Positions 10,791 to 20,950 of a DNA stretch of 64,000 nt are shown here, piece by piece. Within the stretch, counting starts at the first letter, position 1; every line of letters begins with the position of its first letter. Made by a program: the position numbers and the translations under genes. The notes beneath the pieces were generated by a model. The model saw only the letters and a list, made by a program, of their open reading frames with translations. It did not search any database and had not been told where the DNA came from. Source of the stretch: Paenibacillus lycopersici (GTDB taxonomy: Bacteria; Bacillota; Bacilli; Paenibacillales; Paenibacillaceae); contig NZ_CP048209.1 in NCBI RefSeq assembly GCF_010119935.1, forward strand, positions 124,001-188,000, given 5' to 3'.

Positions 10791-10804
10791 TTATGATACG
10801 GTTC
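10791..10804. repeat. Left attachment site of the element
   Basis: TTATGATACGGTTC, identical to 20757-20770. Read on the minus strand with its left flank it encodes EPYHK-stop, so this is the displaced original end of rlmH. A GATACG...CGTATC inverted repeat (10795-10812) overlaps it. Confidence 0.85.
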
Positions 10805-10833
10805 AGCGTATCGCTCTAAATGTGAAAACTTAC

Positions 10834-10863
10834 AAGCCTGTCGTGAAATGCGGCAGGCTTTGT
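10834..10863. terminator. Hairpin terminator inside the left end of the element
   Basis: AAGCCTGTCG-type left arm (10834-10843) pairs with CGGCAGGCTT (10851-10860) and is followed by TTTGTTCTTT on the plus strand. It could stop transcripts from the 9816 gene entering the element. Confidence 0.6.
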
Positions 10864-10889
10864 TCTTTGATAGTGTATCCATTACTTTC

Positions 10890-17362: not shown

Positions 17363-18360
17363 TGGGATACATGAAGGATATTAAAGTAGCCATCTATGTA
17401 CGAGTCAGTACAGAGGAACAAGCAGAAGAGGGGTATTCTATTGATGCCCAACTTGAGAACCTAAGAGGCTTTTGCAAAGCAAAAGGTTATTCCATCATCA
17501 AAGAATATCGTGATGAAGGAATCAGCGGTAAAAGCATTCAGGGTCGAAAAGGCATCCAATCACTATTAGAAGATGCTCGACTAGGCATTTTCTCGAATGT
17601 AATCGTTTGGAAAACAAGCCGAATGTCTCGCGTTCAAATCGATTTGCTTCAAATCGTAAGCACACTTCAAAAACAGGGAATTGGTTTTATCTCCATGACC
17701 GAACAATTTGATACATCTTCTCCATCAGGTAAGGCTATGTTTCAAATGCTTGGCACATTTGCAGAATTTGAAAGAAATCAACTAGCCGAGAATGTTAAGC
17801 TCGGAATGCGTCAAAAAGCCCGACAAGGTGAATGGTGTGGAGGCACAATTCTAGGTTATGACATTGAAGAAGGAAAGCTAATTCCTAATGAAAAAGAAGC
17901 CTTTATTGTTCAAAAGATATTCGAACTTTATTGCCAATGCAAAGGTTTGAAAAGCATTGCTAATCAAATGAATCATGAGGGTTACACAGGTAAGAATGGC
18001 AATCCTTTCTCTGTGAACTCAATCAGAACCATACTTCATAACCCCACTTACATAGGGAAGATAAGATGGAACAAGCAAAACAATTGGAATGAGAAGCGAA
18101 GAAAAGGAACACAGGAACCTCTAATTGTAGACGGTAAGCATCAATCAATCATATCTTTGGAAACTTGGGATACTGCCCAAGACTTAATCAATAAAAAGAC
18201 ATTTACACCAAGTAGACTTTATACCGGAAAGTTCCCCTTAGCAGGCTTCCTGCGCTGTCCAAAATGTGGTGCGGGAATGGTTGGCACTAATCATACTCGA
18301 CAGATAAAGAGCGGTATAGTGCATTATAGAAATTATGTTTGCGGTAACTTCCATTACAAA
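17362..18360 (+). pseudogene. Large serine recombinase, N-terminal part (interrupted by an IS)
   Basis: The first 333 residues of a large serine integrase: catalytic domain with nucleophile serine in YVRVSTEEQAEEGYSIDAQL, a recombinase domain (about 160-260), and the first half of a zinc beta-ribbon (CPKCGAGM ... YVCGNFHYK). The frame then enters unrelated sequence and stops at 18414, because an IS110-family element inserted after codon 333. The remaining 207 or so residues are at 20150 onward in the same frame. The intact enzyme would have integrated and excised the surrounding element. In the present state both conserved beta-ribbon halves are separated, so activity is unlikely. Confidence 0.85.
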
Positions 18361-20149
18361 ATTCCTGTAGAGGCTAAGAAATCGCCTTGGAACAGAAAAG
18401 AGTGCCTCTGGTAAGATGGATTGTAACGGGTCAGAGCCCTTAATCGCCATCATCCACCAGGAGGACACTCATACCATGAAGTTTAACGCATCGAACGCCA
18501 TTAATCAACGGATTGAAAAAATTACCCCTCAGCATCTTATCGTCGGAATTGACATTGCCAAAGAAACGCATGTCGCAGCTGCCGTGAACTTGCGCGGGAT
18601 CCAGCAAGGCCGCAAGCTCGTTTTCTCCAATCATGCCGATGGCCTTGAACGCTTGCTGCGGTGGGTACAGGACTTGCAACGGGCGTATGGGTTTACGGAA
18701 GTTATCTTCGGCGCCGAATCGACGGGACATTACTTTCTCAATGTGGCCTTCGCCCTGCGTAAACGAGGACTTACCGTCGTTCTGGTCAATCCGCTGACGA
18801 CGAAACGGAATAAAGAAAACCGAGATAACAAACCTTCCAAAAACGATGCAAAGGACGCCGTGACCATCGGCGACGTCGTCTCTCGCGGGTACTACACGGA
18901 GTGGGTGGTTCACGATCCGGTCTACCGGCAGCTGCACGCCTTGGTCAATGAACGCGAGGCGATGAGCGATGCCCTCACCGTCATCGACAATCAACTTCAG
19001 ACGGCGATCGATCAGGTGTTTCCGGAATTCTGGTCGGTCTTTAAACACTGGGACGGCAGTCGTGCACGAGCGACCTTGCGCAGTTTCCCCCTGCCCGCGG
19101 ACATCCTTGCCAACACGCTCCCCGAGCTGATCGAAGGGTGGCGGACGAGCGGCTTGAAGCGAGCTGGAGGAACAACGGGCATCCAAATCGCCAGCCAGTT
19201 GCTCCTGGCCGCCGGGCGCTCCATCGGAGTCACGGAGGCAGCGGAACTTGGCCGGCGCATTCAACGGCTCCTTGCGCGGTATGAGCATCTACTGGCTCAG
19301 CAAGCCGAGGTGGATGTGGAAATCGCCGCCCTGCTGGAGCGACTACCGCCGGCTGTCCTGCGTCCCTTGCAGGAAGTCGGACTCAGCCCCTGGTTCATGG
19401 CCGTGATCCTTGCCAATACTGGCGATCTGCGGCGCTACACCCATGGTCAGCAATTACTGGCGCTGGCGGGGCTGAACCTGGCCGAGCGCAGCTCCGGCAC
19501 CTGCAAAGGGCAAGTGAAACTTGCCAAACGAGGGCGAAGGCAACTGCGCAAATATCTGTACCTGGCGGTCATGATGCTGCTCTGCAACCATGCGGGTTTT
19601 AAACGCTGGCATACGTACAACATCAAGACCCTACGTCAGAAAGGCATACACTCGGTGTTGAAGCTTGTGGGCAAGCTCTGCCGCATTCTGGTTGCCCTTG
19701 CACACAGCGGCGAAGCCTTTCAGGAACAAAAGGCTGCCCCGCTGCGAAACGCGACCTAGTCTGAAGAGCGAACCCCCGTCACTTACGTATGTTGTCCCAT
19801 TCGCGGGATAGAAAAAGAAAGCACGGAGTACCGAATGGAAGTTCCGCAAGGGCACAGACCCGTCAAATAAAAGCGATCGGACTTCACCGCTTGGGTAGGT
19901 ATAACGAAGGAAGGTAAGGGCGTAGACCCGTAGAGACATGGGATGGTGAACCCTCAAGCCAGCGTGAAGAAAACGTGCAGCAGAGCAGGGAGCAAAGGAG
20001 CTTCTATGGCATCCTCTATTCCCGCATGCCCGCCTGCGCTTTGCTTGGGGAGTCGGCTACCTTGCCTAGCTTCTGTCACCTGTCCAATGCACTTGAAATC
20101 CTGCGAATGAGAGAGCATACGTGAGAAAAACCATTATTACCAGAGGGAA
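18361..20149 (+). mobile_element. IS110/IS1111-family insertion sequence in the recombinase gene
   Basis: About 1789 bp separate two in-frame parts of the serine recombinase; boundaries were set by joining HYK (codon ending 18360) to GTSVCSSN (codon starting 20150). It contains one DEDD transposase and an inverted repeat CCTCTGGTAA (18405-18414) with TTACCAGAGG (20137-20146), 3 bp from the right end but 44 bp from the left. The non-coding right side is long (19760-20149, 390 bp) with a repeated AGACCCGT motif, and could hold a bridge RNA as described for IS110 relatives. Ends are accurate to a few bases. Confidence 0.75.
18476..19759 (+). CDS. IS110-family transposase
   Basis: A 427-residue protein from ATG 18476 with a strong AGGAGGA SD; the frame is open further upstream but without a better start. 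The N-terminal DEDD (RuvC-like) domain shows IVGIDIAKETH, FGAESTGHYF and KNDAKDA. The C-terminal transposase_20 domain has LQEVGLSPWFMAVILANTGD and GLNLAERSSGTCKGQ. IS110-type enzymes move DNA through a RuvC-like catalytic site plus a C-terminal serine and are guided by an element-encoded RNA. The coding sequence appears complete. Confidence 0.92.
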   Translation: MKFNASNAINQRIEKITPQHLIVGIDIAKETHVAAAVNLRGIQQGRKLVFSNHADGLERLLRWVQDLQRAYGFTEVIFGAESTGHYFLNVAFALRKRGLTVVLVNPLTTKRNKENRDNKPSKNDAKDAVTIGDVVSRGYYTEWVVHDPVYRQLHALVNEREAMSDALTVIDNQLQTAIDQVFPEFWSVFKHWDGSRARATLRSFPLPADILANTLPELIEGWRTSGLKRAGGTTGIQIASQLLLAAGRSIGVTEAAELGRRIQRLLARYEHLLAQQAEVDVEIAALLERLPPAVLRPLQEVGLSPWFMAVILANTGDLRRYTHGQQLLALAGLNLAERSSGTCKGQVKLAKRGRRQLRKYLYLAVMMLLCNHAGFKRWHTYNIKTLRQKGIHSVLKLVGKLCRILVALAHSGEAFQEQKAAPLRNAT

Positions 20150-20950
20150 GGAACTTCTGTCTGTAGTTCAAACACGGTTAAGGCAGAGATAATCGAGAAA
20201 AAAGTAGTAGAACGACTCACCACATCAATACAGCAACCCGAAATCATTAGAGAAGTTATTAGGAATGTAAACACAGATAAGAAGAAGCGAATTGCTCCTC
20301 TTAAGAAAGAGCTAGCGTTAATCGAGCATGAGCTAGCCAAAATTGAGTCCAATCTCGATAAGACTTTCCAACTGTTCTACGCAGACATTATCGACAGTCA
20401 AATGTTTAAAAGCAAAAAAGAAGCCATTGAACAGGATGCTAAACGGCTTCAATCTAAGCGTGAAGAAATTCAGTTTTTACTAAGTGGTGATAGTAGCGCA
20501 GAACTACCCGAGAAAGAAATCCTGAAAATCATAACGGACTTTGCAAATGTGTTTTCCCAATCTGATGTAGACAAGCAAAAGCATTTTCTAAAGACATTGG
20601 TCAATGATATTACCCTAACCCCTGAAAGGGACTTAAAGAACATCAATCTCAACATTCAGCTAAAGATTCCTCAATCAACCAACTCCAAAAAGCCCTCGCA
20701 ACACCCCCAAGAAGGAAGTGATGAGCTTCCTTACACGTCGAATATTTCACATTTATTTATGATACGGTTCCCCCCGGTTAATCTTCACCGCCCGGTACAC
20801 CTGCTCCAGCAGCACCAGCCGCATCAGCTGGTGCGGCAGCGTCATGCGCCCGAAGCTGAGCTTCTGCTGAGCGCGCTTCAGGACGGCGGGCGCGAGCCCG
20901 TTGCTCCCGCCAATGACAAAAGCCACGTGGCTCCGCCCGTACGTGGCTAA
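20150..20950 (+). pseudogene. Large serine recombinase, C-terminal part running into antisense rlmH
   Basis: The frame resumes with GTSVCSSNTVKAEIIEKKVV, the second half of the zinc ribbon. A coiled coil follows (about 20260-20520, RIAPLKKELALIEHELAKIE) and then the C-terminal domain ending LPYTSNISHLFMIRF exactly at the right att core (20757-20770). In the chromosome the frame continues 60 codons antisense through rlmH to a stop at 20950. Joined to the left end, as in an excised circle, it would read SVSL-stop instead. No start precedes this part after the IS; an internal ATG at 20402 has no SD and is not a real gene. Confidence 0.75.

Follow-up and report, generated by a model that had tools for sequence, protein, structure and literature searches.

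Staphylococcal cassette chromosome (SCC) elements are best known for methicillin resistance in staphylococci. A conserved core locus with a helicase and a polymerase-SSB is a feature of these elements in the available part of PMC10061031, and the Enterococcus cassette chromosome (ECC) is described, in the accessible part of PMC6222049, as having attachment (att) sites of ~50 bp, with several attR sites in 16 of 32 elements. Already in print, too, are islands resembling SCC that have Pol-SSB primases and lie behind rlmH in several Bacillota (17 examples, found via the primases); restriction-modification cargo is reported for them, empty sites are given for three, and they include a tandem composite behind rlmH of Paenibacillus pinistramenti with two large serine recombinases (PMC10061031, in the sections at hand). 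Here, we analyse a stretch of 64,000 nucleotides of Paenibacillus lycopersici (the window; GCF_010119935.1, contig NZ_CP048209.1, positions 124,001 to 188,000 of the forward strand), in which an earlier note had read positions 10791–20770 as an SCC-like integrative element at the 3′ end of rlmH. We consider it highly probable that this interval is the first unit of a site-bounded array of at least four units behind rlmH, marked by 14-bp copies of the rlmH end, inverted arms and a recombinase resembling the cassette chromosome recombinases (Ccr) that is split by an IS110 insertion sequence (IS), and that it was, in all likelihood, inserted as a circle by that recombinase; it is predicted to be no longer self-mobile. 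The result of the family-wide survey reported below is stronger than that for the single unit.

Two copies of the rlmH end bound the first unit

What delimits the unit? Two exact copies of TTATGATACGGTTC, at 10791–10804 and 20757–20770 on the plus strand, enclose 9.97 kb, and a search of all 6,743,310 bases of the genome returned these two and no further exact copy, precisely as the earlier note had described the repeat within the window. The rlmH-proximal, attR-like core forms the last codons of rlmH (20753–21232, minus strand), the gene of a 23S rRNA methyltransferase (Pfam and NCBIfam RlmH, 230.7 bits; cut-off 172), and the distal, attL-like core doubles as the start of the next cassette leftward. 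Reading both junctions on the minus strand confirmed that either copy completes rlmH with EPYHK-stop—GAA CCG TAT CAT AAA TAA on the right, GAA CCG TAT CAT AAG TAG on the left—so that, on the rlmH strand, GAACCGTATCATAA runs into ATAA in the right copy and into GTAG in the left one. On the same strand, the repeat contains TATCATAA. Cores and EPYHK-stops together support the proposed SCC-like insertion at the rlmH 3′ end, by which the gene stays complete; in the manner of SCC elements in staphylococci, the first unit probably came in through site-specific insertion.

Past the distal core, the rlmH strand reads GTAGGGCGAAG, which resembles the native sequence following rlmH in relatives, such as AAGTAGGGCGAAATTTG or AAGTGACGGCGAAATTTT; joining 10790 to 20771 over one core would therefore give an ordinary rlmH end. 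Just inside the two cores lie 11-bp arms, TTTCACATTTA on the right (20745–20755, plus strand) and its inverted repeat on the left (10817–10827, minus strand; TAAATGTGAAA on the plus strand), which match each other, as an SCC-type circle junction predicts, with a score of 22 in the unit-end comparison. The G+C content is 35–41% over most of the interval, compared to ~60% to its right, in agreement with the AT-rich cargo noted before, but the IS110 part reaches 58%, and low values (42–48%) persist for ~3 kb left of 10791, so that G+C is no marker of the left boundary. The host is of Paenibacillus type, in keeping with the Paenibacillaceae-like assignment made from the letters: among the 120 rlmH relatives listed, nearly all named proteins are from Paenibacillus.

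A Ccr-like recombinase gene split by an IS110 element

The N-terminal part of a large serine recombinase (17362–18357, plus strand; Resolvase and Recombinase domains and the start of a zinc ribbon in Pfam) belongs to an open reading frame (ORF), 17362–18414, that runs into an IS110-family element of ~1804 bp (~18358–20161, plus strand; transposase 18416–19759, NCBIfam IS110 RNA-guided transposase, 192.6 bits). On the far side, the C-terminal part extends from ~20162 to 20770 (plus strand). The N-terminal part is 75% and 68% identical to the database proteins P0002 and P0003, both of which are unbroken at the IS position. With its gene split by the IS110 element, the recombinase is predicted to be inactive and the unit unable to move by itself.

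The earlier note had envisaged a single large serine recombinase taking the place of ccrAB. A large serine recombinase it is, but one whose gene is split by the 1.8-kb IS110 element, and its best NCBIfam models are CcrB and CcrC themselves: the N-terminal part scores 315 bits with CcrB (cut-off 900), and the C-terminal part 46 bits with CcrC and 31 bits with CcrB and also matches PHROG 95. Judged by these CcrB and CcrC matches, all below the cut-offs, the protein is related to the Ccr family and no replacement for it.

Further copies of the IS110 element are present in the genome, one matched over 1804 bp at 99.5% (L091, near C1:5380550) and one over 1569 bp at 99.6%, from 18358 to the edge of the stretch compared (L090, near C1:3057515). 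Their left flanks are alike (AACGGATC.TGTGTCCG), which may reflect target choice.

One-way arrays of rlmH-end sites in Paenibacillus and its family

Does the unit stand alone? The pattern GARCCNTAYCAYAARTRR, the back-translation of EPYHK-stop, occurs at five places in the genome, all on the rlmH strand (C1:144753, which is rlmH, 134787, 122326, 120225 and 105649). What had been taken for one bounded element thus holds as a 9.97-kb unit, but the earlier reading missed that it is the first of at least four (9,966, 12,461, 2,101 and 14,576 bp) in a 39-kb array (C1:105,649–144,770) that extends left beyond the window; as the window starts at C1:124001, most of the second unit is inside it and two further units are outside.

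The same pattern was found in 21 of 22 genomes of a genus sample (123 places; none for a backward control pattern) and in 144 of 148 genomes of a family sample (565 places versus 9 for the backward control), with rlmH itself accounting for one expected match per genome. At least two sites were present in 111 of the 148 family genomes and at least three in 78 (maximum, 19); in 44 of these 78, all sites lay on one strand, compared to 8.2 expected at random. An order sample, family members included, gave matches in 141 of 149 genomes. Behind rlmH of our genome and 26 relatives (27 loci, 482 kb; two stretches not longer than 5 kb), the 14-mer pattern occurred 40 times in rlmH orientation and never reversed, and a dinucleotide model yielded a mean of 0.1 per strand, with a maximum of 2 over 30 runs. 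Chance does not explain the sites located there. One or more further sites were seen at 19 of the 27 loci and none at eight. One-way arrays also exist away from rlmH. Those at L095, L098, L099, L105 and L106 begin with sequence similar to the final rlmH codons, as though ends of this gene had been copied or had travelled with cassettes.

Recombinase lineages and their arms

Where do relatives of the recombinase reside? Matches to P0002 at E ≤ 1e-75 were obtained at 29 places in 17 of 128 family genomes (own genome left out), and 24 of these places, in 15 genomes, are no more than 40 kb from rlmH on its 3′ side; 20 of the 24 are convergent with that gene. None of 14 weaker matches (E 1e-55 to 1e-75) was near rlmH, seven of the 14 being unplaceable, with rlmH on another contig or not found. 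When a FastTree tree of 30 recombinase sequences was compared with the post-core sequence beside each recombinase, lineage and arm agreed in all 14 classed units (chance probability of the partition ~6e-7, for classes set after the data had been seen). Class A (GGCAAGTTTTTT) comprises three units, L109, L164 and L159, in one clade; class B (GGGCGAAATTT or a close form) comprises six (L160, L166, L167, L168, L169 and L171), five of which have a second tandem recombinase and group with P0064, a protein named cassette chromosome recombinase B by NCBI; class C (GGTAAA) comprises L084, L155 and L170; and class D (AAGCACAAA) comprises L162 and the third recombinase of L160. The other 16 sequences of the tree are five second recombinases, seven unclassed ones, P0064 and the three of the window lineage (window, P0002 and P0003). 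In that lineage, the arm is TAAATGTGAAA in the window, and P0002 and P0003 have SHLFMIRF, the translation of the window's arm plus core, at the matching point.

Most genomes with several sites have no such recombinase (77 of 93 with at least two sites and 56 of 67 with at least three in the 128-genome set, by a search limited to ten candidates per genome), and most cassettes are therefore predicted to be moved in trans. Class A and B arms also occur on cassettes in which no recombinase was found (for example, L074, L096, L097 and L101), which makes movement in trans, by lineages with matching arms, the natural inference. A simpler arrangement, one dedicated recombinase per genome, was rejected: PF07508 is present in 16 of the 22 genus genomes and absent from six, and five of these six (G001, G009, G010, G012 and G021) have at least three sites, with recombinase remnants in the array of G009. 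In a scan of genome contigs, only L109 of 15 loci matched past query residue 233. At L173, a 2.9-kb unit behind rlmH (12664–15536; NZ_CP054613.1), of which the recombinase takes up about half the length, resembles a near-minimal cassette; the record is labelled a plasmid although it is 2.7 Mb long and carries rlmH.

Site-to-site stretches as units

Taken from site to site, 68 stretches measured 144–16,524 bp (median, 2.9 kb). With one stretch of under 400 bp removed, the two ends of each of the remaining 67 units were compared as inverted repeats. The mean score was 16.97, whereas 200 random pairings had a mean of 13.29 and a highest value of 14.81, the two sides of one site scored 12.64 (n = 33) and letter-shuffled ends 10.5. 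Ends thus match better within a unit than across a site, a pattern that a circle junction of SCC type with two-fold symmetry predicts. A crude two-class arm scheme gave like ends in 28 of 32 classifiable units (Fisher p = 0.00026).

A 0.96-kb cassette located in a secondary array of G007 is seen again immediately behind rlmH in G019. In 60-bp bins, 10 of 16 inner bins are 0.93–0.98 identical and six 0.45–0.87, compared to 0.23–0.42 in the bins outside; identity changes at both G007 sites, and the near site in G019 is rlmH itself. Binned comparisons of this kind were made for five chosen pairs. Homology breaks at both G007 sites in the pair L103/L087, and in the other four, near-site ends stop within ~0–200 bp of a site in one genome or both. 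For certain ends (L101 left, L074 right), no site is close by. The same small cassette, or most of it, is present at L087, L103 and L101, that is, in three species and at different places.

Could the sites instead be a dispersed palindromic repeat, terminator-like or resembling a miniature inverted-repeat transposable element (MITE), and the segments between them ordinary variable chromosome? Many sites are near-palindromic, some are solitary or lie in either orientation elsewhere in a genome, and no recombinase gene is common to the segments: clustering of 276 cassette ORFs revealed none, the largest clusters having four members. A repeat of this sort would, however, hardly account for the 40-to-0 orientation behind rlmH or the excess of genomes with all sites on one strand (44 of 78), nor for a cassette shared between genomes that breaks at the G007 sites. 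Arms that track recombinase lineage in the classed units, and ends that match within units more than across sites, likewise argue against a simple dispersed palindrome, and we consider this explanation improbable compared with site-bounded units inserted behind rlmH.

Cargo of the first unit and its neighbour

From left to right, the first unit holds an ORF of 100 amino acids (11072–11374, minus strand; unmatched in Pfam, NCBIfam, PADLOC and PHROGs at the thresholds applied), lying 3′ of the gene of a specificity subunit with two similar halves (11337–12806, minus strand; matched by the PADLOC models Specificity_I and MAD5; an internal repeat of 138 nt, 73% alike, with its copies 789 nt apart), a fusion of a nuclease-type domain (HSDR_N_2) with an N6 adenine methyltransferase (N6_Mtase; 12803–14617, minus strand, Pfam), three small ORFs of 63, 118 and 61 amino acids (15492–16527, minus strand; no match in PADLOC or PHROGs), an XRE-type helix-turn-helix regulator (16877–17362, plus strand; Pfam HTH_3) that overlaps the recombinase start, and the recombinase. 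Type IIB restriction-modification systems have nuclease and methylase fused and a separate, two-part specificity subunit. The genes of the unit show this arrangement in Pfam, PADLOC and a PDB match: the best relative of known structure is RM.BsaXI (E = 3.8e-25, over the methylase part), which we take to be a type IIB enzyme, and the type IIB-like system suggested earlier is borne out. In NCBIfam, the methylase is best matched by MAD2, a model from the MADS defence system (405 bits; cut-off 720), and a 90% identical protein is listed for Paenibacillus sp. BC26. The same cargo at a non-homologous place without the repeat, or 10805–20756 as conserved syntenic sequence at an ancestral locus, would have spoken against the proposed insertion, as the earlier note pointed out. 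Neither appeared: no methylase relative at E ≤ 1e-100 was found in 127 other genomes sampled from the family, and tblastn searches with seven cargo proteins gave nothing at 1e-4 in the DNA that lies 3′ of rlmH in 26 relatives (up to 20 kb; most 20 kb, some shorter).

Between the methylase gene and the small ORFs lies a non-coding stretch rich in inverted repeats (14640–15490). Rfam at E ≤ 1 gave no match over 8–24 kb of the window, the non-coding ~14.6–15.5 kb included, and among the loci compared, this stretch had no DNA relative, matching only its own place (in L163). No polymerase-SSB or helicase gene was matched among the ORFs of the unit scanned against Pfam, NCBIfam and PHROGs, and no tyrosine recombinase turned up in a Pfam scan of ten window proteins, with no search aimed at IntI or attC.

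The second cassette (12,461 bp from site to site, C1:122343–134804) occupies 1–10790 of the window, and the next rlmH-strand site is outside it, at C1:122326–122343. It encodes an ApbA-like reductase and a TetR regulator (Pfam) as well as, by eye, a large surface-type protein. The latter (4033–8448; 1,471 amino acids) appears by eye to contain leucine-rich-like, fibronectin-like and S-layer-homology-like repeats, and a relative of it sits directly behind rlmH in L086.

Is the unit then a decayed prophage or conjugative element whose phage-type serine integrase makes the likeness to SCC superficial? The integrase family PHROG 95 matches its recombinase strongly, and P0002 has matches in 912 phage records. 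The eight of these that are listed, however, reach 31% identity and 209 bits, compared to 39% and 312 bits for recombinases of staphylococcal plasmid records; close relatives of the recombinase cluster at rlmH; and no structural, packaging or conjugation gene was detected among the ORFs scanned (Pfam, PHROGs). We therefore give this origin slightly less weight still than the dispersed repeat. That the IS110 element, a member of an RNA-guided recombinase family located inside the unit and with two near-identical copies elsewhere in the genome, created the insertion is hardly credible, given that 0.6 kb separate its right end from the core next to rlmH and 7.6 kb its left end from the distal one, and that no transposase match at 1e-4 was obtained behind rlmH in 26 relatives, 18 of which have the same kind of sites.

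The att core within the recombinase reading frame

In the window, the C-terminal recombinase frame reads across the right arm and core (SHLFMIRF) and on along antisense rlmH, up to a stop at 20950. The predicted circle would bring it to an end after MIRFSVSL. In P0002 and P0003, SHLFMIRF is followed by a tail that, by eye, resembles the antisense-rlmH tail of the window, which makes it likely that both sit at the same site with the same arm. Among 19 loci, the frame crosses a recognised core in three (L084, L128 and L138), runs far past the usual end without a core in one (L130), ends before it gets to a recognised core in five and has no core within range in ten; at L173, the last matching recombinase piece also crosses a core, with breaks. 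As tail lengths vary, selection on the tail is not supported, and the idea of a sensor stays speculative. We found no report of an att core inside a recombinase frame in the literature searched, which is no proof of absence.

Discussion

How might the unit have been inserted? We propose that the recombinase would pair a palindrome-like circle junction (arm-ACCGTATCATAA-arm) with the rlmH end, and that crossover would take place at or near the start of the 14-bp core, probably at the GA dinucleotide. Insertion would leave rlmH complete because the element supplies the same last codons, and the array may have been built by stacking, that is, by repeated insertion of units at rlmH.

Several observations weigh against this interpretation. 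A collection of one genome per species offers no empty site of the same species, and the relatives examined have other DNA behind rlmH. Of the close recombinases, five of 29 were not placed beside rlmH (four on other contigs, one 0.7 Mb away), and the E = 1e-75 split was set in a gap of the list after the list had been viewed. Arm classes were likewise set by eye after the tree was seen, seven of the 30 tree sequences are unclassed (L156, L158, two of L161, L165 and two of L171), and the window arm is its own type, tied to its lineage by the translated tails of two database proteins. In the two-class scheme, both ends fall into class A or B in 32 of the 67 units, and in four of these 32 the ends are unlike; in the other 35, that of the window included, one end or both belong to neither class. 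In G019, the site at the far end of the shared cassette is unrecognisable, no more than a remnant. A homology-break statistic, which the binned pairs replaced, proved unusable: 98 of 880 alignment ends were near sites (random mean 66.9, standard deviation 7.0, highest 92), with rlmH alignments left in. Intact relatives of the recombinase, too, score well below the CcrB and CcrC cut-offs (P0002, 368 bits), and PHROG 95, the strong match of the recombinase, is a phage integrase family. Finally, at least two sites occur in 10 of 145 sampled members of the phylum outside the family; arrays are thus not confined to it.

Might the arrays of Paenibacillus and its kin amount to a serine-recombinase counterpart of the integron? 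We put this forward tentatively, with the odds somewhat against it: a shared rlmH-end core would be flanked by arms that address it to at least four or five Ccr-like lineages, and recombinase-free cassettes bearing those same addresses would form a pool that is collected and exchanged in trans. In some lineages, that of the window included, insertion would swap an element-coded end (MIRFSVSL in the circle) for the antisense-rlmH tail, a possible sensor of the inserted state. Integrons carry one-orientation arrays of mostly recombinase-free cassettes that are moved in trans, and they have a tyrosine recombinase, an attI of their own and smaller cassettes. The rlmH arrays share with them the one-way, mostly recombinase-free arrangement and, as predicted, the movement in trans; they differ in using a serine recombinase, in having a host gene end as the site and in a median cassette length of 2.9 kb. 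If cassettes do move in trans, Paenibacillus and its kin would have a large pool for exchanging genes, whose cargo includes defence, regulatory and metabolic functions. Several Ccr-like lineages, each with its own arms around one invariant core, make att-site discrimination between recombinases directly testable, and pairs of recombinase and site could serve as genetic tools.

How, then, does the locus compare to the systems it most resembles? With the Pol-SSB islands, it has in common the position behind rlmH, a second end that can be located by the terminal ~12 bp of that gene, a composite in tandem in Paenibacillus and restriction-modification cargo; family-wide arrays, recombinase-free cassettes and the pairing of arms with lineages are not among the points found in the available portions of that report (PMC10061031). 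ECC, as presented in the accessible part of PMC6222049, likewise uses the 3′ end of rlmH, has its core in common with SCC and shows dyad symmetry and variable cargo, but relies on a ccrAB pair, and its circularisation and transfer were shown, whereas here a single, broken recombinase is known from its sequence. SCC elements—SCCmec, pseudo-SCC and composite SCC—are closest: in the parts of PMC10061031 and PMC6222049 at hand, they occupy the 3′ end of rlmH, have TATCATAA in the core and degenerate inverted repeats that include the last rlmH codons, encode a Ccr-type large serine recombinase and form composites with several rlmH-end repeats. The unit has the insertion at the 3′ end of rlmH, the direct repeats with the integration-site sequence and the inverted end repeats (the TTTCACATTTA arms). 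It differs in its host, in a recombinase that scores below the CcrA, CcrB and CcrC cut-offs (315 bits for the N-terminal part and at most 46 for the C-terminal part, versus 900) and is broken by IS110, so that no ccrAB or ccrC is recognised, in a core locus of helicase and polymerase-SSB that was not seen among its scanned ORFs, and in a recombinase frame that runs through the att core. By recombinase and core locus, then, the unit is no SCC element; it probably works like one and is probably related to it.

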